From positions 1-41,273 of the forward strand of contig JAAYWZ010000069.1 of NCBI GenBank assembly GCA_012516175.1: a stretch of DNA of 41,273 bases, written 5' to 3'. The position numbers and the translations under genes were made by a program. Shown here piece by piece: positions 5,553 through 16,755 of this stretch. The stretch is from Bacilli bacterium (GTDB lineage Bacteria > Bacillota_I > Bacilli_A > Haloplasmatales > Haloplasmataceae). The notes beneath the pieces are model-generated. The model was not told the DNA's origin. It ran no database searches and worked only from the letters and a program-made list of their open reading frames with translations. Position 1 is the stretch's first letter. Each line of letters starts with the position of its first letter.

Positions 5553-6907
5553 ATGTTAAGAAAATATATCGCTCCCAAAATTTTCTATAAAGAACTATTC
5601 ATTATCATTATCCCAATTATTATTCAATTCTTTGTGCAAAATTTTATCAACTTTCTTGATAATATCATGGTAGGTCAATTAGGGGAAGGAGAAATCGCTG
5701 GAGTTGCAGTTGCCAATCAATATTATAAATCTTTTATCCCATTTTAGTATCAATTTGTCAAGGTGCCGCGATTTTTACCGCCCAATATTATGGTCAAGGT
5801 AATTATCAGGAAGTACAAAAAATCTTTTCCATTAAACTTATTTTTCCGAGTTTAGCTACCTTATTCTTTTTCTTTGTTGGAGTATTATTTCCCCAAAGAA
5901 TTATTGGATTCTTTGTCGATGCAAATCTTGATGCCTATAAACATGGTGTAAAATATCTAAAAATCGTCATATGGAGTTATCTACCATTAAGTATTAGTAG
6001 TGCCTTTGCCTTCACTTTACGTCCACTTAAACTTACGCATATCCCTATGATTGCGGTTATAGTGGGAATGAGCACAAATGCGCTCCTTAACTTCTTATTA
6101 ATTTATGGTTTTTGGATTTTTCCTGCCTTAGGAGTTGAAGGAGCAGCCATAGCGACGGTCATTGCGCGTATCATGGAGTTAATTGTCTACATAGTATTAT
6201 TTTTTAAGAATGATTATCCTTTTAAGACGAAAATTGCTAATTACTTTAAAATAGATTTAGATTTAGTCAGAAAGACTTTTGTGAAGGTTGTACCATTATT
6301 CTTTAATGAAGTTTTATTCACTTCAGCATTAACCATTATCTTTAAAACCTACAGCAACTTAGGGCAAAAGGAAATCGCCGTTATTAATATTGCTGATGTG
6401 ATAAGTCAGATTGTCTATATACTCGCTAGTGGCTTAGGTACAGCAGCTAATATCTTTGTTGGTATCCATTTAGGTAATAATGAACTTAAAGAAGCCGAAG
6501 ATAACGCTAATTACTTGTTAGGCTATTCAGTAGGGATGGGAATCATCATAACCTTTATCTTAAGCATCATTTCCTTCATCGTTCCACACTTCTACAATAT
6601 CCAACCCCAAACTAAGGTATTAACAACATATGCAATTCTTATCCACGCCTTTATGGCTCCAGTAACGATGTTAACAAGGATACCCTTCTTTGTGTTACGG
6701 AGTGGGGGGAGGGTATATGAAGTTTTACTTTTAGATGCCATTTTCATGTGGATAGTGAAAGTACCTGTTGCCATAATCTGTGGTTATGTTCTTCATTTCC
6801 CCATCTTACCACTCTTTTTGGCGGTAGAAGCGACCAGGATCTTAAATGCGACTATTAGTATGGCATTATATAAAAAGAAAAGATGGCTAACTAACCTCAC
6901 ATCTTAG
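5553..6907 (+). pseudogene. MATE-family multidrug exporter, disrupted by a one-base frameshift
   Basis: MATE proteins export cationic drugs using a Na+ or H+ gradient. The first frame gives residues 1-64, including the N-terminal I-D/D-N-I-M-V-G-Q-L-G block of the first MATE helices, and then hits TAG at 5745-5747. The next frame (open from 5744 to 6907) continues the homology without a gap, with L-V-S-I-C-Q-G-A-A and A-Q-Y-Y-G-Q-G-N. Adding one T to the TTTT run at 5742-5745 restores one reading frame of 451 codons, the usual MATE length with 12 spans. A later in-frame ATG (6047) would miss the first third of the protein. The 3' end overlaps the stop codon of the convergent ABC permease. Either a recent pseudogene, a phase-variable tract, or a homopolymer error. 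Confidence 0.85.
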
Positions 6908-7677
6908 GAACCTGTAGATAAGTAATGTTTAACGCCATAATTCCATATCAAAATGCAAGGGATGATAAAGAGTATGCCTAGTAAGGGAGTAAAGGCATAA
7001 ATGACCTGATTATTTTTACCTAAGACATAAAGAAGTGGTAAGTAATTAACTACACCATAAGGTATTACAAAGGTAAAAAGCTTTTTCACCCAATCCTTAT
7101 ATATATTGATGGGATATTGGGAGATTTCTCTTCCTCCATCAGTTAGGATATTGATTACTTCTAACCCTTCAATAGTAAAGAAACATAGTGTTGCACCAAT
7201 CATGTAAATTCCCGCAAAAATAAAGATGCCACTAATAATCATTAATATAAATGTGAGTATCTTAATGATATTCCAATCAATTTGCACTTTTGTAAGTGCA
7301 ATAATAAAAATTACCACTGCTTGAAATAAACGACCAATACGGGTAAATTCAAATTGACTTCCTAGAACTTGCACTATTGTTGACCGTGGTCTAACTAGGA
7401 TGCGGTCAAAGTCACCTGTTACAACTAAGCGAGAAAAATTATCGAAGCCCCGCACAAAACATTCAGTTAGAGAAAAGGCTATATGAATAATTACATAACA
7501 AAGGGCTACTTCCCACAAGGACCAGCCCTTTATTTCCTGGAAGCGTTGAAATAAAAAATATATTCCTAAGAATACTGAGAAGGGAACAAAGATTTGACCA
7601 ATGGATAGAAGGATAAAACTGGTGCGATATTCTAATTGACTTTTAAATAAGATTTTTACATATTTCCAATACAACAT
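6904..7677 (-). CDS. ABC-2 type permease, DUF990 family (second subunit)
   Basis: This 257-residue integral membrane protein has about six hydrophobic spans. The cytoplasmic segment G-D-F-D-R-I-L-V-R-P (near residue 90) is the hallmark of the DUF990/ABC-2 permease family. It is last in a three-gene exporter operon: ATPase (9449-8481), first permease (8484-7681), then this one 3 bases later. The pair of unequal permeases plus one ATPase is the standard composition of this family, which includes poorly characterised exporters. Its substrate cannot be read from sequence. The TAA stop shares two bases with the TAG of the convergent MATE gene. Confidence 0.85.
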   Translation of the reverse strand: MLYWKYVKILFKSQLEYRTSFILLSIGQIFVPFSVFLGIYFLFQRFQEIKGWSLWEVALCYVIIHIAFSLTECFVRGFDNFSRLVVTGDFDRILVRPRSTIVQVLGSQFEFTRIGRLFQAVVIFIIALTKVQIDWNIIKILTFILMIISGIFIFAGIYMIGATLCFFTIEGLEVINILTDGGREISQYPINIYKDWVKKLFTFVIPYGVVNYLPLLYVLGKNNQVIYAFTPLLGILFIIPCILIWNYGVKHYLSTGS

Positions 7678-7680
7678 CTC

Positions 7681-8484
7681 TTATCCTCCTTGAATCACTA
7701 AGCGTTTGAGGGCTTTATTCATCCACAATTTACCGATGATATATAGGATAATGATCCAGACAATTTGTATTAAAATACTAATTATAGCTTCGTTATGGGT
7801 GATACTTCCCACATAAATTCTAAAGGGTAAGTCAGTTGTATAACGGAAGGGTAGAAAATAAATAATTCGCTTCAGTGCTTCAGGCATTAAAGGTATTGGG
7901 ATAATTAACCCTGCCAGAAACTCACCAATAACCCCAAAAATGAGAATTGAACCAGTGCCTGATAAGGTATAAAACATTGAAATATAAATTAACATCGATA
8001 ATGCTACCACTATTAATACCCCTAATACTAGGGTGATGATAAATAGTATAAAGCTAAAAGCATCAGGTGGTAGGACAAAATTATATGGATAAGGTAACAA
8101 GGAGGTAACAATGAGAATCGGTAGAAACCTTAATAAAGCACTAGAAGTGCGTTGGGCAAGGAGTCGTGCATACCAAAATTCATAGAGTTTAATGGGACGT
8201 AAGAGTTCTACCGCAATATCGCCTTTGGTAATCTGATTAATGATTTCACTATCGCGAAACCATAACATAATTAGGGCAAGAAAAGCTTGTTGAAGCCACA
8301 TCATATTAACTAATTGATGAAAAGTAATGGGTTGTGGTGTAGAACTACTAGCATAAAAGGCTTCAAAGATTAAGATATACATGAAACCCCAGAAGAACTG
8401 GGTTAAGACTCCCGCTAAAGCCGCTGTCCGATACTGTAACCCACGGATAAAACGCATCTGAAAGAGGACTAAATAACTCCTCAT
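7681..8484 (-). CDS. ABC-2 type permease, DUF990-like family (first subunit)
   Basis: The protein has 267 residues and about six membrane spans. It carries the corresponding family signature K-G-D-I-A-V-E-L-L-R-P in the first large cytoplasmic loop. R-Y-T-T-D-L-P-F-R-I-Y near the C-terminus is also typical of the partner permease in these systems. Its ATG overlaps the ATPase stop codon by four bases (ATGA type), which implies translational coupling, and the second permease follows 3 bases after its stop. The three proteins should form one heteromeric exporter. Confidence 0.85.
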   Translation of the reverse strand: MRSYLVLFQMRFIRGLQYRTAALAGVLTQFFWGFMYILIFEAFYASSSTPQPITFHQLVNMMWLQQAFLALIMLWFRDSEIINQITKGDIAVELLRPIKLYEFWYARLLAQRTSSALLRFLPILIVTSLLPYPYNFVLPPDAFSFILFIITLVLGVLIVVALSMLIYISMFYTLSGTGSILIFGVIGEFLAGLIIPIPLMPEALKRIIYFLPFRYTTDLPFRIYVGSITHNEAIISILIQIVWIIILYIIGKLWMNKALKRLVIQGG

Positions 8485-9449
8485 AATTGATACTCCTTAT
8501 ATAATTTCACGATGATATCTTCAATCGGAAGATGATTGATATCGATATCTTCGATTTGAACATATTCGGAAACCTTATCGATTATTTGCGGTAGCGATTG
8601 TTTGTTCGTATTTATCATAAACCTTAATTGGTTTCCATTGATGTTTTCAATGGGGAAGTCAAAGGGCTTAAACTGTGTTGAATAAGTTATGACCATTGTT
8701 TTTTCGCTACCAAACTTTAGTTTTACTTCATCTAAAGTACCATCAAGAAGGATCTTCCCTTTACCAATCAAGATAATACGATTCACTAGTTCTTCAATAT
8801 CACGCATATCATGGGTTGTAAGAATAACTGTTACTTGTTTCTCTTGATTAATCGTCTTGATGAAGTTTCGCACTGCTTTTTTCGATACGGCATCTAAGCC
8901 AATCGTTGGTTCATCGAGAAACAAGATTTTCGGATCATGAAGTAAAGCTGCCCCCATCTCACAGCGCATTCTTTGACCTAAACTTAATTGACGAACAGGA
9001 GTATTTAATAATTCCTTTAGTTCTAAAGTTTCCGTTAAGAGTTCAAGATTATTCTGATAGACATTAGTAGGTATCTTATAAATATCTTTGAGTAACTGAT
9101 AAGAATCGATGACGGGGACATCCCACCATAATTGTGTTCGTTGCCCAAACACCACGCCAATATGTTTTACATATTCTTTTCTATCCTTCCACGGTGTGTA
9201 ACCTATTATGTTACAAGTACCATTATCAGGGACTAAAATGCCACTGATGACTTTTATGGTAGTGGATTTACCAGCTCCATTTGGGCCAATATAACCGACA
9301 ATTTCACCTTGCTTAATATTAAAAGAGACGTTATCTAAGGCTTTAACAATAGTATATTCTCGCCTTACTAGATGTTTTAAAGCCTCGATAACGCCTTTGT
9401 TTCGTTTTGCGACTTGAAAAGTTTTAGTTATTCCTTCAACTTGAATCAT
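8481..9449 (-). CDS. ABC transporter ATP-binding protein for the DUF990-type exporter
   Basis: The ATPase subunit has 322 residues. It shows Walker A G-P-N-G-A-G-K-S-T-T, the signature L-S-L-G-Q-R-M-R, Walker B I-L-F-L-D-E-P-T-I-G-L-D and the switch H in T-T-H-D-M. The insertion before the nucleotide domain (A-L-K-H-L-V-R-R-E-Y) and the G-V-V-F-G-Q-R-T-Q-L-W-W-D Q-loop region are characteristic of the ATPases that pair with DUF990 permeases. The start at 9449 follows AAGGAGG; an upstream in-frame ATG would include that site in the coding region. A consensus promoter precedes it. Substrate unknown. Confidence 0.9.
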   Translation of the reverse strand: MIQVEGITKTFQVAKRNKGVIEALKHLVRREYTIVKALDNVSFNIKQGEIVGYIGPNGAGKSTTIKVISGILVPDNGTCNIIGYTPWKDRKEYVKHIGVVFGQRTQLWWDVPVIDSYQLLKDIYKIPTNVYQNNLELLTETLELKELLNTPVRQLSLGQRMRCEMGAALLHDPKILFLDEPTIGLDAVSKKAVRNFIKTINQEKQVTVILTTHDMRDIEELVNRIILIGKGKILLDGTLDEVKLKFGSEKTMVITYSTQFKPFDFPIENINGNQLRFMINTNKQSLPQIIDKVSEYVQIEDIDINHLPIEDIIVKLYKEYQL

Positions 9450-9484
9450 AAGTTCCTCCTTAAACAAGAAACTACAACTGAAAT

Positions 9485-9523: not shown

Positions 9524-9553
9524 AAAATATCGAACCAGAAGGTTCGATATTTT
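9524..9553 (-). terminator. Terminator of the lipoprotein operon
   Basis: Thirteen-base-pair perfect stem (9524-9536 with 9541-9553), four-base loop, T run on the minus-strand side. It separates the lipoprotein cluster from the ABC operon promoter. Confidence 0.85.
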
Positions 9554-9558
9554 AATGA

Positions 9559-10324
9559 TTATTCGTATTGTAATTGAATTTTATAAACTGCTCGATCATT
9601 ATATTCGGTTAGTGTATATAAATTATCAGTATAACCATTAATAATATCTTTACGATCAAGGATTTTAACTTTTCTTTGTGGCTCACTAAAGTAACTAACT
9701 GTATAATCGTAGGAGATAATACAATAAGCCATATCTTGATGAAGGGTTATTTCATTAAGCAAGTTGTCTAAGTTAAGAGTATTATAAGCAAGTTTATTAA
9801 AATCTTGGTCAAATTGAATTATCTCATAACTGATTAATTTTGGCATATAACTAAAATTCACTTTAAAGACAATCTTTTCATTAACCTGATTAAAATTAAG
9901 ACTGTAACCTAAGGATTGAGTACCTTTTACGTCATAATTGGCACATGTAGGTGTAGTTTGATCTAATTCTTTTATTTCCCCAGTTTTCTCTAATTAATGA
10001 AGTGATATAGTAACATTTATATTTGGGAGTTAAATGATAGTAGATATCATGTTCGGTAATATTAACTCCATCTTTATCACGATATTTATTTACTTTTATC
10101 TCATAAATAAATGAACTTAGTTCACCATCAAGATAGTAATAATCAACAATGGTGTTATCGATAAGAGAATGATTGTATAAGGTTATTTTTACACCTACAT
10201 AATTCGTTAGAGGTCTTATTATACTTCTTTCTTTTGTTGTTATTTCTGATGTTAATACTAATTTACAGCTTGAAAGTAGAAACATAAGTGTTAAGGATAT
10301 AATCGCTAAATATACTCTTTTCAC
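9559..10324 (-). pseudogene. Lipoprotein copy B', frameshifted
   Basis: This is a paralogue of the 252-residue lipoprotein at 11787-11029. It starts with GTG at 10324, overlapping the stop of copy A' as GTGA. The signal peptide ends at S-S-C (lipobox). The frame follows copy B up to L-I-R-E-N, then diverges and stops at 9932. The homologous continuation (N-G-E-I-K-E-L-D, P-T-C, then V-N-F-S-Y-M-P and so on to 9559) lies in the next frame. Alignment with copy B places one extra base at about 9983, so the lesion is a single insertion. The conserved Cys pair (Y-K-C and P-T-C) is still readable across the break. Real decay or a base-call error cannot be told apart here. Confidence 0.85.
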
Positions 10325-10968
10325 GCTGTTTTCCCCTCAGTTTCTGTTGTAAACTTTAGTGTTATTATCTGGCGTTCATTATTTTGATTGAGACTGATAG
10401 TGGAGTAATTGTACATTTTGTTAGCTTTACTTACGATTTTACTGCGATTAATAAGTTCACGTACATAATAAGGTTCGCCGTTTGCGTCAATGTATTTCAT
10501 ATTTAAGAGTAAATTTGAGGTATCCTTTGAGATGTTTATTGGAATATCATTACTAGTTACATCTATCATGTAATTATCGATTTTGCTATACTCAGCATCA
10601 AATTCAACTACCTCAATGCTTTCAAGATAATCAATATCTACAAATTTCAACATAATATAATATGTAAAGTTTTTGGCTATGTATGTTATTTCTTTTTTAT
10701 CATCGCAAATGGTTTCGGGTGTACCTTCTACTATCTCATCTTTGTCATTATAGAAAACAAAACTATAAGTGACGCATTGATACTTATCTAAGTCAAAATA
10801 ATAATCACCTGTTATCGTTTCACTTTCATTAAAAACAACATGGGAATGGATATTCTTTATATAAATACTTCTAGTTAATGTTACATCTTTATTAATACCT
10901 AAATCGTAATTTATGATGTAATAATCATAATTATAATCATCTAATTTCAGCTTTACTGCATATGGTAG
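10321..10968 (-). pseudogene. Lipoprotein copy A', 5' end lost at an IS end
   Basis: Reading the minus strand from 10968, an open frame matches lipoprotein A (12548-11784) from its L-P-Y-A-V-K-L-K-L-D segment to the C-terminus (compare K-P-Y-A-I-K-L-K-L-D in A). It keeps Y-Q-C-V and T-I-C-D-D, the conserved cysteine pair. The signal peptide and lipobox are missing: homology stops exactly where a 33-base IS end (10969-11001) begins, and that IS end contributes an in-frame TGA. The first ATG (10653) would leave only the C-terminal 110 residues, unexported. It is therefore a truncated gene. Its 3' end overlaps copy B', the same arrangement as in the intact A-B pair. Confidence 0.85.
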
Positions 10969-11001
10969 TTTAGTACTGTCTACTTTAAGGGGATCATATC
11001 A
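10969..11001 (-). mobile_element. Solo 33-base IS3-family end
   Basis: Identical to the outermost 33 bases (109-141) of the IS at the left of the window, in the same orientation. The IS body should lie at coordinates below 10969, but lipoprotein A' sequence starts there instead. The rest of the element and the 5' part of A' have been lost, leaving a scar. Confidence 0.8.
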
Positions 11002-11028
11002 GAATATAATCTTCTTTTGTTTATGTTT

Positions 11029-11787
11029 TTAACTATTTGTTGGTTCAACTTTGAACTGAATAATGTAAAATGCTCGTTCATCATTCTCAGTTAGAGTATA
11101 AAAACGTTCAGTATAGCCATTAATGATATCTTTGTGATCAATTATTTTAACATCACTTTGACTAACCTCACCCTCTAAATACTGATATATGATTTTACAG
11201 TAGGCAGTGTCTTGTTGGATGATATATTCATCAGAGATATTATCTAAGGTAATTGTCTTAGAAACAAGTTTATTGTGACTTTGGTCATATTCAATTACCT
11301 CATAGCTTATAAAGTTGGGCATAAAACTAAAGTTAACCTTAAAAATTATCTTTTCATTTACTTTGCTATCTTTATAACCATAGCCTATGGAATGGGAGAA
11401 TTTAGCCATAAAATCCGTACATGTTGCAGTACTGCTATCTAACTCTTTAAGATCACCATTTTCTCTAATCAATGTAGTGATATAGAAACAGTTATACTTG
11501 GGAGTTAAATGATAGTTTATTTCATGTTCTATTACTTGAGCACCACTATCATCTTGATATTCTTTAACACTGACATCATAAATATAGAGACCTTTTTCAC
11601 CATCAATGTAGTAATAGTCAACAAGTGGATCATTAATGAAATTATCAAGTATACTGATTTTTACACCAACATATTCGATCGTTTTGTTTTCTGTCGTTGT
11701 TTTTTCTGTAGTAGAGGAAACTAGTTCACAACTTGAGATAAAGAACAAAGTAACAAATACAATTAATACTAAATATACCCTTTTCAT
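11029..11787 (-). CDS. Lipoprotein B, unknown family
   Basis: This 252-residue lipoprotein has a basic N-terminus, a hydrophobic segment and lipobox I-S-S-C (Cys20), followed by a Ser/Thr/Glu linker. The mature part looks all-beta, with a conserved pair of cysteines: Y-N-C (near 100) and A-T-C-T-D (near 120). V-N-F-S-F-M-P-N-F-I-S-Y-E-V-I-E-Y-D is shared in pattern with lipoprotein A, so A and B are themselves distant paralogues. It overlaps the stop of A by ATGA. The next copies (A', B') are degraded, so A and B are the functional pair. No known domain is recognised. It is probably anchored outside the membrane and made under control of the XRE regulator upstream. Confidence 0.75.
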   Translation of the reverse strand: MKRVYLVLIVFVTLFFISSCELVSSTTEKTTTENKTIEYVGVKISILDNFINDPLVDYYYIDGEKGLYIYDVSVKEYQDDSGAQVIEHEINYHLTPKYNCFYITTLIRENGDLKELDSSTATCTDFMAKFSHSIGYGYKDSKVNEKIIFKVNFSFMPNFISYEVIEYDQSHNKLVSKTITLDNISDEYIIQQDTAYCKIIYQYLEGEVSQSDVKIIDHKDIINGYTERFYTLTENDERAFYIIQFKVEPTNS

Positions 11788-12548
11788 ACTGCTAACCCCT
11801 CATTCTGTACTGAGAATCTTAATACAATGGATTGTCGGACATTTTCTTGATTCAAACCAATAACGGGATAATAGGAGTACTTATTATTTAATCCCTCAAT
11901 CTCGGTGCGATTTACTAGTTTACGCACATAGTAAGCTTCGCCGTTCTTGTCAATGTATTTTTTATTGATTAGAAAATCCTTGGCATCTTTGGAGATAAAG
12001 ACAGATATTTCAGGATTATTTAAATCGATGCGCTGGATTTTAAGTTTGTTGTCATGTTTATCAAACTCAACAATTTCAATACTTTCTAGTATGTCGACAT
12101 CTACAAAATTCATCGTAAACGAGTGACTATAATTATTGGACGTGTAAGATATGTGGGCTTGATCTTCGCAAAACATTTCCGGATTATGCTCTTCAATTTC
12201 ATCATTTTCGTTAATGAATAAGTAACTTAAAATCACGCATTGATAACGATCCATATCGAAATGATAATTACCTGTGATAATTTCTTTATCATTACCAATT
12301 AGATGGATATGAACATTACTATAAAAATGACTAGTAGTAAACTTTTTATCTTCATCGTCCCCTCGATAATAAGAAGTTACATAATAATCTATTGTATTCT
12401 CATCTAACTTGAGTTTTATGGCATATGGCTTTCGAATTATATCTTGATTGGTACTAGTTTCAGTTGTTTTATCAATATATACTAATTGACACCCTAAAAG
12501 TATCAAGATGGTAAATGAGAATATCAAGTATTTAATTAATTTAGTCAT
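11784..12548 (-). CDS. Lipoprotein A, unknown family
   Basis: This 254-residue lipoprotein starts at the ATG at 12548 (M-T-K-L-I-K), preceded by GGAGAGG and overlapping the stop of the XRE gene by 8 bases. Upstream in-frame Met codons lie inside the XRE gene and would spoil the signal peptide. The lipobox is L-L-G-C. The mature part has the same skeleton as B: Y-Q-C-V, then M-F-C-E-D, then M-N-F-V-D-V-D-I-L-E-S-I-E-I-V-E-F-D. The cysteine pair is conserved in all four copies and may form a disulfide. It is translationally coupled on both sides (XRE-A-B). Function unknown. Confidence 0.75.
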   Translation of the reverse strand: MTKLIKYLIFSFTILILLGCQLVYIDKTTETSTNQDIIRKPYAIKLKLDENTIDYYVTSYYRGDDEDKKFTTSHFYSNVHIHLIGNDKEIITGNYHFDMDRYQCVILSYLFINENDEIEEHNPEMFCEDQAHISYTSNNYSHSFTMNFVDVDILESIEIVEFDKHDNKLKIQRIDLNNPEISVFISKDAKDFLINKKYIDKNGEAYYVRKLVNRTEIEGLNNKYSYYPVIGLNQENVRQSIVLRFSVQNEGLAV

Positions 12549-12774
12549 CGTTATCCTCTCCATCATTATCATCATCAATAAATTTTATAATATCACCTGG
12601 TTCACATTTGAGGACTTTACACAACTTATTTAAAGTGGAAAATCGAATCGCTCTTGCTTTATTACTACGAAGGATAGAAAGATTCGCTTCGGTAATGCCG
12701 ATAATATCCGCTAATTCTTTTGAGGTGAGATTATTTTTCTTAATAATCTCATCCAAATTGACATAAATACTCAT
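12541..12774 (-). CDS. Small XRE-family regulator (YozG-like)
   Basis: The helix-turn-helix protein has 77 residues. L-D-E-I-I-K-K-N-N-L-T-S-K-E-L-A forms helices 1-2, I-T-E-A-N-L-S-I-L-R-S the recognition helix, and R-F-S-T-L-N-K-L-C-K-V-L-K-C-E-P-G-D-I the typical end. This is the short Cro/CI type usually encoded next to DUF2975 membrane proteins. Here it follows the DUF2975-like gene by one base. The end is odd: an 11-residue acidic tail made almost only of Asp, Asn, Gly and Glu. It probably binds the inverted repeats at the operon promoter; this is inferred from position. Confidence 0.9.
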   Translation of the reverse strand: MSIYVNLDEIIKKNNLTSKELADIIGITEANLSILRSNKARAIRFSTLNKLCKVLKCEPGDIIKFIDDDNDGEDNDD

Positions 12775-12775
12775 G

Positions 12776-13831
12776 TTAGATTGTTAAACTATTTTCTGTA
12801 TAGATTTCATAACTTTGACGCATTACCAAAGCAAGTAAGTAAAACACAAGTGTCAGAGTAAGAGATGTAAAAGGGAAGTCGATTGATAACTTTAGATTCT
12901 GAATATTGTTTTTAAAAATTAACTGATATACATTATTTATTAACTGATAAGCGAGATTGGCAATAAAGTAAATGAGGAATAAGGAACTGCAATTCTTAAG
13001 TAACATTACATTATCAATCGAAAAGAGAATTTCATTTGTATAATTGACTAAGAGATCATGTAGGTTGCGTAATACTCTAGAGATTAGAAAAAACATTAGG
13101 TAGTATGAAAAATACTCGAAAATGATTAGGACAATTTCATGTCCTTTTCCATATTGGATATTACTTAAATTGTTAACTTCATTTTTAATCATTATCGGAA
13201 TAATATAGAAAGCAAAGATAAAGAGAAAAGTATAACAAATTCTTTGGATTACTAATAAGAATTTGGCTGCCTTAAAGAGGTTTAGTGGCTGTTCTTTATT
13301 CTTTATTAAGAAACGATAGACTAGATAGAGAATTACGACAAGGATTAATACTAAGATTAGACCTAAATAAATAATTTTACGATAATTCTGAAGAAAATTC
13401 TCGATTTCTTCATGGAGGAAGTTTATTGAATCTAAGGGGCTCGTGATAAGCGTTGGATTGATTAATAAATAGATGATAACACCAGTAAGGATACTAATTA
13501 TTATATAGAAGAATAAATCAATTATCTCTATGCATTTCTTATTTTTATAACAGCAGTAAAGATAAATAATTACAGGGATTAAACTGATTAAACCAAATAA
13601 GGTTAAAGCTAGGGCATTCCCAACAGCTCCTGTTAATGCTAGGGATTTTAATGTGTTACTTATGAATTTAAAGGGATAAAGCATTATTTCTAGGAGAATG
13701 GTAAAGTTGGTAGTAGAGAAATTACTTAGCAATCCTAATATAACGAGCACAAGGGCAAGAAGAATCAATGATATGAAGTTAATGGTACTTTTCTTGTAGT
13801 CGTAGAAAAGATAGAAGATTTTTGTTAACAT
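12776..13831 (-). CDS. Polytopic membrane protein with a DUF2975-like C-terminal half
   Basis: This 351-residue protein has about eight hydrophobic spans. The C-terminal ~160 residues (four spans, ending in A-L-V-M-R-Q-S-Y-E-I-Y-T-E-N-S-L-T-I) resemble DUF2975, whose members are normally only about 160 residues and pair with a YozG-type XRE gene, as here. The N-terminal half adds four spans with the block L-T-G-A-V-G-N-A-L-A and is not part of that family. The ATG at 13831 is chosen because GGAGG lies directly before it; the frame extends 24 codons upstream into the inverted-repeat region. It is first gene of the regulator and lipoprotein operon. It may act as a sensor or partner of the regulator; no function is known. 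Confidence 0.65.
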   Translation of the reverse strand: MLTKIFYLFYDYKKSTINFISLILLALVLVILGLLSNFSTTNFTILLEIMLYPFKFISNTLKSLALTGAVGNALALTLFGLISLIPVIIYLYCCYKNKKCIEIIDLFFYIIISILTGVIIYLLINPTLITSPLDSINFLHEEIENFLQNYRKIIYLGLILVLILVVILYLVYRFLIKNKEQPLNLFKAAKFLLVIQRICYTFLFIFAFYIIPIMIKNEVNNLSNIQYGKGHEIVLIIFEYFSYYLMFFLISRVLRNLHDLLVNYTNEILFSIDNVMLLKNCSSLFLIYFIANLAYQLINNVYQLIFKNNIQNLKLSIDFPFTSLTLTLVFYLLALVMRQSYEIYTENSLTI

Positions 13832-13844
13832 AGGACCTCCAATA

Positions 13845-13909
13845 AAATTATTGTTTTTCGATAATTCTATTACTATTATATACATTAAATTATCGAAAAA
13901 CAATAATTT
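13845..13909 (-). promoter_or_regulatory. Operator-promoter: 22-bp inverted repeat around a consensus promoter
   Basis: Two perfect 22-base arms, 13845-13866 and 13888-13909, are separated by 21 bases. Each arm contains TTATCG-A5-CAATAA, itself a near-palindrome (TTATYG-N5-CRATAA). On the minus strand the -35 TTGTTT (13903-13898) lies inside the upstream arm, the -10 TATAAT (13880-13875) in the spacer (17 bases apart), and the second arm covers the transcript start and leader. Two dyad sites placed this way fit repression by a Cro/CI dimer, most likely the XRE protein of the same operon. Confidence 0.75.
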
Positions 13910-14078: not shown

Positions 14079-15461
14079 ATGAACACGAATAATCTTAAGG
14101 AATACCTAGCATTATTAACGCCATACACAGAACTCCGTGTGCAAGCTAATAGCACGATGAGCATGGCTTTTCTGAATGGTAACATGATAAGTAACAGCCA
14201 AAACCGCAACCATGGTGTTAGTGCCCGTGTTTACAAGAATGGTTCTTGGGGTTTTGCGTCTAATTCTGTTGTTGATGATGCTGGTATCAGAGCCGCGCTT
14301 AGTGAAGCGGAAAATAATGCGAGGTTTTTAGATTCGCGCTTAGATATGCGCAAAGCCATTTTTAATCCGACAGTCGGGAAGATGGAAAAGGATTTTCGCA
14401 GTACGAAAAGGTCATTAAGTCAAGGTGAAATCAAGGAATTTATCAAATTACTTGATAATTATATAGCAAGCAAATATCCAAATGTTATGCAACGTTATGT
14501 GGGTATCCAATTCCTTTCCATGGAAAAAAATCTTGTTACTAGTGACGGCGTTGAGTTCTATTCTTTTATTCCTCGAACTGCCATTCCTGTGCAACTAACT
14601 GTAGTTAAAGATGGAGTACCAGTAAATCTCCATGAAGTTTTCGGTGGTTTGGGCGAAGCCCAAGACTTCCTCGATAACCCGGAAAACTTCTATCCAAAAA
14701 TTGATAAATTATATCAAGAATTAGTTAATAAGAGCGAAGGTGTAATGCCTAAAGCGGGATTATGTGAGGTAATTTTAGCGAGCGATATCGCTGGTATCTT
14801 AGCCCATGAAGCGATTGGTCATACCACGGAAGCCGACTTAGTTTTAGGCGGTTCCATTGCTGCGGAATACATGAATAAAGAAGTTGCTTCACCTTTAGTA
14901 ACCCTAGTGGACTTTGCTCATACCTATAACGGTAAGACTCTAACGATGCCCATTTATATGGATGATGAAGGGGTCGTCGCAGAAGATGTCGTTATTATTG
15001 AAAATGGTATCTTAAGAAACTACATGCATAATAAAGAATCAGCCCGTATCTTTGGTACAGAACCTAAAGGTAATGCTCGAGCTTGGCAGTTTAATGATGA
15101 ACCATTAATCAGAATGCGGAATACTGCCATTTTACCTGGAAATGACAAGTTAGAAGATATGATTGCCTCCATTGAAGATGGTTACTTCTTAACTAAGACA
15201 GGTAATGGCCAAGCTGATACCACAAGTGAATTCACTTTCTCTGTTAACATGGGTTATGAAATTAAGAATGGTAAGCTCGGTAGAGCCATTAAGGATTCTA
15301 CAATCTCTGGTATTGCCTTTGATGTCTTAAAGAGCGTAACGATGGTATCCGATGAGATGACTTGGTCCGGTGCTGGTGGCATGTGTGGTAAAAAACAACC
15401 CATTCCTGTTGGTATGGGCGGACCATCGATTAAGTGTAAAGTAAATATCGGGGGTGAGTAA
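14079..15461 (+). CDS. tldD: Metalloprotease TldD
   Basis: TldD is the catalytic subunit of the TldD/TldE zinc protease, which degrades unfolded or modified peptides and in some bacteria matures ribosomally made peptides. The protein has 460 residues. The zinc motif H-E-A-I-G-H occupies residues 243-248 (HExxxH), with E251 close by. The C-terminal G-x-x-x-G-G-M-C-G-K-x-Q-P-I-P-V-x-x-G-G-P block is highly typical. The ATG follows AAAGGGGG. tldE overlaps its 3' end. No convincing promoter was seen in 13910-14078, though that gap is A/T rich. Confidence 0.95.
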   Translation: MNTNNLKEYLALLTPYTELRVQANSTMSMAFLNGNMISNSQNRNHGVSARVYKNGSWGFASNSVVDDAGIRAALSEAENNARFLDSRLDMRKAIFNPTVGKMEKDFRSTKRSLSQGEIKEFIKLLDNYIASKYPNVMQRYVGIQFLSMEKNLVTSDGVEFYSFIPRTAIPVQLTVVKDGVPVNLHEVFGGLGEAQDFLDNPENFYPKIDKLYQELVNKSEGVMPKAGLCEVILASDIAGILAHEAIGHTTEADLVLGGSIAAEYMNKEVASPLVTLVDFAHTYNGKTLTMPIYMDDEGVVAEDVVIIENGILRNYMHNKESARIFGTEPKGNARAWQFNDEPLIRMRNTAILPGNDKLEDMIASIEDGYFLTKTGNGQADTTSEFTFSVNMGYEIKNGKLGRAIKDSTISGIAFDVLKSVTMVSDEMTWSGAGGMCGKKQPIPVGMGGPSIKCKVNIGGE

Positions 15462-15462
15462 T

Positions 15463-16755
15463 ATGGCTAATAAGGAAATTTTAAAACACACTTTAGCACG
15501 TTTGGAAAATATTGTTGATAAATGCCAATGTAGCACAAGTGTTAACCGTAAATATGAACTAAATCTCGAAAATGGACAAATCTCCTTATTAAGAACCACC
15601 ATCGATCATCAATACTCCGTGACTGTCATTAAGGACCAAAAACAAGGTTCCATTACAATTAATAAAACCGATGAACAAAGTGTAAATGAAGCCATTGATA
15701 AAGTCGTGGAAATTTGTGCGAATTCCGAAGTTGATGAAGCTTATGACATCGCACCCTTCCAAGAACCAAAAGTCTTTGTCAGTGGTGATCGTGAACCGAA
15801 TTTAAACAAGATGTTTGACCTGTTACAAGATTATGTGGAACAAGTTAAAGTTAATTTCCCAACTATTAAGTTAATGGATACAGCCATTAGTTTTACTATT
15901 AGTACGAAACATTTAATGAATTCTAATGGTGTCGATTTCACCGAAACTGAAGGTTACTACGATTTTTCTAGTATGTTTGCGGCAAAAGAAGGAGATAAGA
16001 GTTCATCCTTCAACTATACTGGTTATTATGTTAAAAAACTGGAAAAAGCCTTATTAAGTTATGGTACCTTAAAACGTGTACTTACGGAAACTACTGGTCA
16101 AATCCATACTAAAGGTATACCAGATAAATTTAAAGGTGATGTTATCATTACCCCTGATTGTATGAGCATGTTAGTTTTCTTCGTGGTAAATGTATACCTA
16201 TCTAATATGCCGCTTATTTCTAAAACCAGTCCATTACTTAATAAGCTTGATGAACAGGTTGCTTCACCTTTATTTACCCTCCATGCTGCTCCAAGAGATG
16301 AACGTATTGTTAAGGGGTATCAAGTTACTAATGATGGCTTTGAAGCCCAAAACATGACCATTTTTGATAAAGGTGTGCTCAAAAATTATGTCCTTAACCA
16401 ATATGGAGCTAATAAAACCGGACTTCCTCGTAGTGCGAATGTCGGTGGTTGTTACATCGTTGATAGTGGTGCTACTCCACTAGAAGAAATGATTAGGAGT
16501 TGTAAGCGTGGAGTCTTAGTACATCGAATCTCAGGTGGAAATCCTAATAATAATGGGGATTTATCAGTAGTATTAAAGAACAGTTATTATATCGAAGATG
16601 GTGAAATTAAATATCCATTAAATGAAACAATGATTACCCTAAATCTTAAAGATGCTCTAGCAAATATCACGGAAGTTTCTAAGGAACAAGTGAACTTTGG
16701 TCACGAAATCTATCCCTATATTAAAGTCAAAGATGTATTAATATCTGGTAAATAG
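15463..16755 (+). CDS. tldE: Metalloprotease subunit TldE (PmbA)
   Basis: This is the partner of TldD, 430 residues long, lacking the HExxxH motif as expected for the E subunit. Typical blocks are present: S-N-G-V-D-F near residue 150, L-P-R-S-A-N-V-G-G and a G-D-x-S repeat region near the C-terminus. The start is taken at the ATG at 15463, immediately after GGGGGTGA at the end of tldD. A GTG at 15454 would overlap tldD and has a poorer site. The two subunits are encoded together and should form a heterodimer in the cytoplasm. A strong bidirectional terminator follows. Confidence 0.93.
   Translation: MANKEILKHTLARLENIVDKCQCSTSVNRKYELNLENGQISLLRTTIDHQYSVTVIKDQKQGSITINKTDEQSVNEAIDKVVEICANSEVDEAYDIAPFQEPKVFVSGDREPNLNKMFDLLQDYVEQVKVNFPTIKLMDTAISFTISTKHLMNSNGVDFTETEGYYDFSSMFAAKEGDKSSSFNYTGYYVKKLEKALLSYGTLKRVLTETTGQIHTKGIPDKFKGDVIITPDCMSMLVFFVVNVYLSNMPLISKTSPLLNKLDEQVASPLFTLHAAPRDERIVKGYQVTNDGFEAQNMTIFDKGVLKNYVLNQYGANKTGLPRSANVGGCYIVDSGATPLEEMIRSCKRGVLVHRISGGNPNNNGDLSVVLKNSYYIEDGEIKYPLNETMITLNLKDALANITEVSKEQVNFGHEIYPYIKVKDVLISGK

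Follow-up and report, generated by a model that had tools for sequence, protein, structure and literature searches.

A variant of the DUF2975/XRE gene pair extended by predicted surface lipoproteins, with a conserved candidate operator and a possible role in membrane-controlled autoregulation

An operon from a member of the Haloplasmataceae joins an extended DUF2975-like membrane protein and a small XRE protein to exported lipoproteins, behind a promoter that carries two candidate operator sites. Judged from its sequence and by analogy with SdpR and SdpI, it probably encodes an autorepressor that is controlled by a membrane partner, with induction of a fast-evolving surface lipoprotein as the outcome. 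The XRE/YoaS-like pair is already known; the three-part form with a lipoprotein is new. In a survey of 2009, the pair of Xre and an adjacent YoaS-like membrane protein was noted as conserved and then left aside (PMC2701414), and as the lipoproteins have no family entry, the operon counts as a novel form of a pair already on record. The first-pass annotation did not recognize the lipoprotein-extended form as a described system; the pair alone had been listed previously, and neither Pfam nor NCBIfam contains a family for the lipoproteins. A full-text search of the open-licence literature found no study of the function of DUF2975 and no mechanistic study of DUF2975/XRE pairs. Such pairs are common, and the operator and the C-terminal tail described here give two testable handles on how they work; the lipoprotein branch is an unclassified surface-protein family seen in many gut Clostridia. 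A broader reading is put forward tentatively: an undescribed three-component module, widespread in Firmicutes, in which the exported lipoprotein and the extended DUF2975 protein may sense an outside agent and, via a C-terminal peptide tail, control the XRE autorepressor; the module's operator would be conserved in Bacilli and Clostridia and as far as Flavobacteriia.

The window, by which is meant the whole stretch of 41,273 nt that was analysed, comes from a 2.26-Mb assembly (G000) that shares its family with a Haloplasma contractile MAG. All the operon genes lie on the minus strand with neighbouring ends touching or overlapping (12776/12774, 12541/12548 and 11784/11787), as had been described earlier, and they form one apparent transcription unit covering membrane protein, XRE and lipoproteins. 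In the direction of reading, the features are as follows.

13889-13907, minus strand: candidate operator O1, ATTATTGTTTTTCGATAAT, an exact match to the motif; it holds the -35 hexamer TTGTTT (13903-13898)
13875-13880, minus strand: -10 hexamer TATAAT, spaced 17 nt from the -35 hexamer that precedes it; the layout is the same in G001 and G002
13847-13865, minus strand: candidate operator O2, ATTATCGAAAAACAATAAT, 42 bp from O1 and covering the point where transcription is expected to start
12776-13831, minus strand: extended DUF2975-like membrane protein, 351 aa, about eight membrane segments by hydropathy, C-terminus ...YTENSLTI
12541-12774, minus strand: XRE/HTH_26 predicted repressor, 77 aa; PF13443 with an E-value of 2.3e-21
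11784-12548, minus strand: lipoprotein A, 254 aa, lipobox LLGC; AlphaFold2 model all-beta with pLDDT 87.4
11029-11787, minus strand: lipoprotein B, 252 aa, lipobox SSC; homologous to A
10321-10998, minus strand: A', remnant of a further A gene that has lost its 5' part; an open frame lacking start, signal peptide and lipobox
9559-10324, minus strand: B', remnant of a further B gene, split by a frameshift into two frames, 10324-9932 and about 10023-9559
9524-9553, no strand assigned: terminator-like hairpin closing the operon

The ABC genes beyond the hairpin have a promoter-like site of their own (9513-9485), and a search for RNA families within the operon found none. The operon is flanked by a TldD/TldE-like pair (14079-16755) and a three-gene ABC transporter (6904-9467); this frame is kept in G001, a genome of the same genus, and occurs with insertions in G002, a Haloplasma MAG, and in G003.

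The two candidate operators together form a perfect inverted repeat with 22-nt arms. Their motif, derived from Haloplasmataceae, is a near-palindrome of 19 bp, ATTATYG-N5-CRATAAT. Operator sequence, 42-bp spacing and promoter are all kept in G001 and G002, and the operator is present too in G136, G301, G265 and G242. A wider set of loci was obtained by scanning a genome collection with an XRE alignment and keeping the best 80 of the larger number found. Among these, the three-gene form occurs in 37 further loci besides Haloplasma and G265, mostly in Clostridia. The operator lies upstream of 36 of 37 triads (one of which is the Haloplasma locus itself), with a pair in 35 of them; among 770 shuffled regions, 1 gave a match. 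Such conservation is partly expected because the 80 loci were picked by XRE similarity. Paired sites stand 28-36 or 41-43 bp apart, which in most cases amounts to three or four helical turns, and in most Clostridia the sequence TTGACA lies inside the first operator site. Only two exact copies exist in the window genome, both at this operon; relaxing the search to two mismatches gave 120 matches against 96 in the control, mostly noise. G003 has a second exact copy, away from its XRE gene (G003:C7:45569-45587; around 4070 in L034), possibly marking a further regulon member. Some Flavobacteriia short pairs also carry the operator, and the same operator pair accompanies a short DUF2975/XRE pair in the enterobacterium Cedecea neteri (L170), which suggests a wide spread of the two-gene form.

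The XRE protein is of the YozG type, matching HTH_26 (PF13443) over residues 6-68 of 77 with 76.2 bits against a threshold of 22, and is 81-82% identical to the copies in G001 and G002. Its gene stands next to the membrane-protein gene in the same direction (12776/12774), as in the published Xre/YoaS-like pair (PMC2701414). In the membrane protein, Pfam DUF2975 (PF11188) covers residues 244-351 only, the last 108 of 351 aa, with an E-value of 4.5e-5 and a score of 23.8 bits on the protein (hmmscan) or 27.3 bits on the translated genome, the curated cut-off being 27. Most of the long membrane protein thus matches no curated family, and even the DUF2975 match near its C-terminus is borderline at best. 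The long membrane proteins of Clostridia, of about 310 aa, gave no DUF2975 match, and a scan of the genome contigs with the window membrane protein alone found nothing; profile alignment of the window and Clostridia proteins gave an hhalign E-value of 1.2e-18 over 288 columns. Landmarks recur across the loci, namely PF-x-x-I-x(3)-L-x-x-L and a GN.

The last residues of the long membrane proteins follow the pattern E/D-N-x-L/M-T/I/F-I, and DUF2975 proteins near an XRE gene have an acidic C-terminal tail of the LT[IV] type. In 30 Bacilli DUF2975 loci, 22 proteins are tailed and an XRE gene is nearby in 20 of these, one of the exceptions lying at a contig end; an XRE gene is nearby in none of the six intact tailless loci (P = 7e-5, a nominal value only, as related sequences are not independent). 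This association suggests that the tail is a likely contact with the repressor, although it could alternatively be a protease or PDZ signal.

Lipoproteins A and B each have a signal peptide followed by a lipobox cysteine at Cys20, as expected of bacterial lipoproteins, and their surface location is predicted on this basis. Many members of the family begin with GC-x-L-[AV], and in some Clostridia members an ordinary export signal or anchor replaces the lipobox. On the alignments, A and B are paralogues: BLASTP gives 24% identity over 165 aa, and A-type and B-type alignments match each other by hhalign at 99.1% (E-value 1.8e-18, 229 columns), so the alignability noted earlier is real. The Clostridia lipoproteins match A at 5e-10 and B at 5e-14. 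Past the signal peptide, the AlphaFold2 models are nearly all-beta both for window A and for a family member from Clostridia (pLDDT 89.7). No function can be read from the fold, as searches of the PDB and of viral models gave no match at an E-value of 0.001 or below; a sequence search of the PDB likewise gave none. Matches in PHROGs were marginal, and most matches in the lipoprotein-profile search covered the signal peptide only and were discarded. No homologues were found in viral contigs, phages or plasmids.

The first-pass annotation saw in the operon a disulfide-type lipoprotein family of four members. The cysteine pair is indeed present in A, B, A' and B' (in B' when read across the frameshift), but it is absent in G265, G136 and G301 and is not conserved among the Clostridia homologues. 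It is therefore confined to Haloplasmataceae and is no family trait. Nor are there four intact lipoproteins, but two, A and B. The sequences of A' and B' do match A and B, but A' is without a start codon ahead of 10653 and has neither signal peptide nor lipobox, and B' is frameshifted near 9990 within a run of G; both are thus remnants, unless the shift in B' is an assembly error, as it could be. The truncation of A' is hard to explain in that way. The proposed order of events, an A/B duplication followed by duplication of the pair, fits a tree in which several forks are unsupported and the A proteins of G000, G001 and G002 group apart from their B proteins. The two lipoproteins of G265, a member of the Acholeplasmataceae, cluster together in the same tree, with long branches and moderate support, which suggests independent duplications there and in Haloplasmataceae.

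The lipoprotein and the N-terminal extension of the membrane protein occur together. The same operon is found in five Bacilli families besides Haloplasmataceae, and its order is conserved in G001, G002, G265, G136, G301 and G242. All four genes are present in G002 and G265; G136, G301 and G242 have the membrane protein, XRE and one lipoprotein, and G221 has XRE and a lipoprotein at a contig edge. G001 carries two tandem units, the first of which keeps XRE but has A and B truncated, while in the second A and B are intact and both XRE and operator are missing. In G003 the XRE gene is intact and one operator remains, the membrane protein is deleted and A survives as a remnant only. Coupling was scored with profiles of the extension and of the lipoprotein in the best 80 XRE-selected loci: 39 have both, 40 neither, one the extension alone (L143) and none the lipoprotein alone. 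Since some of the positives served to train the profiles, it is the negatives that carry the weight of this count. Neither component was found in the 30 Bacilli loci picked by PF11188. The conserved neighbourhood predicted from the window thus recurs in a profile search. Scattered homologues without the regulator pair, named at the outset as what would speak against the proposal, do exist, but they number four in Bacilli (G007, G054, G155 and G162) against more than 40 coupled loci.

The lipoproteins also diverge fastest. Between G000 and G001 identity is 82% for XRE, 62% for the membrane protein and 46% for each of A and B, with the flanking TldD at 94% and the ABC ATPase at 90%; as the comparison may be between paralogues, this contrast in rate is an upper bound. 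Divergence, duplication and decay together fit a surface component under changing selection, although part may be paralogy.

SdpR and SdpI of Bacillus subtilis belong to protein families other than those of the window XRE and membrane protein, and no membership of those families is claimed. The window operon most likely works like theirs, each combining a multi-pass membrane protein with an autorepressor, in the window a predicted one; the Sdp system differs in having no lipoprotein and a known toxin, SdpC. There, SdpI acts by sequestering SdpR, an autorepressor, at the membrane (PMC1626106). By analogy, the window XRE protein would bind both operators and so repress the operon that encodes it, probably with few other targets. 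The membrane protein would bind the repressor via its conserved tail (E-N-x-L-T-I type), taken as cytoplasmic, and this contact may hold the repressor at the membrane or free the promoter upon an outside signal. Cooperation with the lipoprotein would fall to the N-terminal half of the membrane protein, which is almost never encountered without it, and the lipoprotein outside the cell may catch the signal or neutralize an agent at the envelope. The short DUF2975/YozG-type pair shares the HTH_26 XRE, the C-terminal DUF2975 domain, the -LT[IV] tail and often the operator; the window form adds the extension, with further membrane segments, and the exported lipoprotein, both lacking in the short form. 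The earlier idea of a membrane protein and repressor controlling surface lipoproteins is well supported by the neighbourhood and the conserved paired operator, shorn of its disulfide-type family and its four intact lipoproteins. The LanI lantibiotic immunity lipoproteins, such as NisI and SpaI, are surface lipoproteins of similar size and offer an analogy of possible function only; the window lipoproteins have no family match, and no lantibiotic genes are seen alongside.

The membrane protein might instead sense the membrane itself, the lipoproteins being envelope-maintenance factors with no outside antagonist. Single-locus autoregulation and a module without toxin or export gene would suit this, and short DUF2975/XRE pairs without lipoprotein in other phyla indicate that the pair can sense alone. 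Fast divergence, duplication and decay are, however, unusual for housekeeping envelope factors, and we consider this account unlikely. The repeated duplication and loss of the fastest-diverging component fit a surface part that faces a changing agent, for example a rival's peptide. Much less probable is a selfish or toxin-antitoxin-like module, with XRE as the antitoxin to a harmful membrane protein or lipoprotein. The distribution in Bacilli is patchy, and Xre beside a YoaS-like membrane protein did turn up in a toxin-antitoxin survey, but the survey discarded the pair (PMC2701414). Matches on plasmids or phages are also lacking, no convincing defence family emerged (PADLOC matches were weak, the best being generic HTH models), and the second unit of G001 has no XRE yet retains the other genes. 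That the lipoproteins are surface proteins lying by chance behind the pair is largely refuted and hardly to be credited, the four orphans located elsewhere weighing little against near-perfect coupling with the extension across classes, in genes that usually overlap.

Three of the orphans (L188, L098 and L099, in G054, G155 and G162) each follow shortly after a similar hydrolase gene and are perhaps a separate subfamily. In Acholeplasma granularum (L107, 3682-6181), a short DUF2975/XRE pair has an unrelated membrane-anchored protein on either side, one of 253 and one of 324 aa; these are possibly another coupled surface partner.
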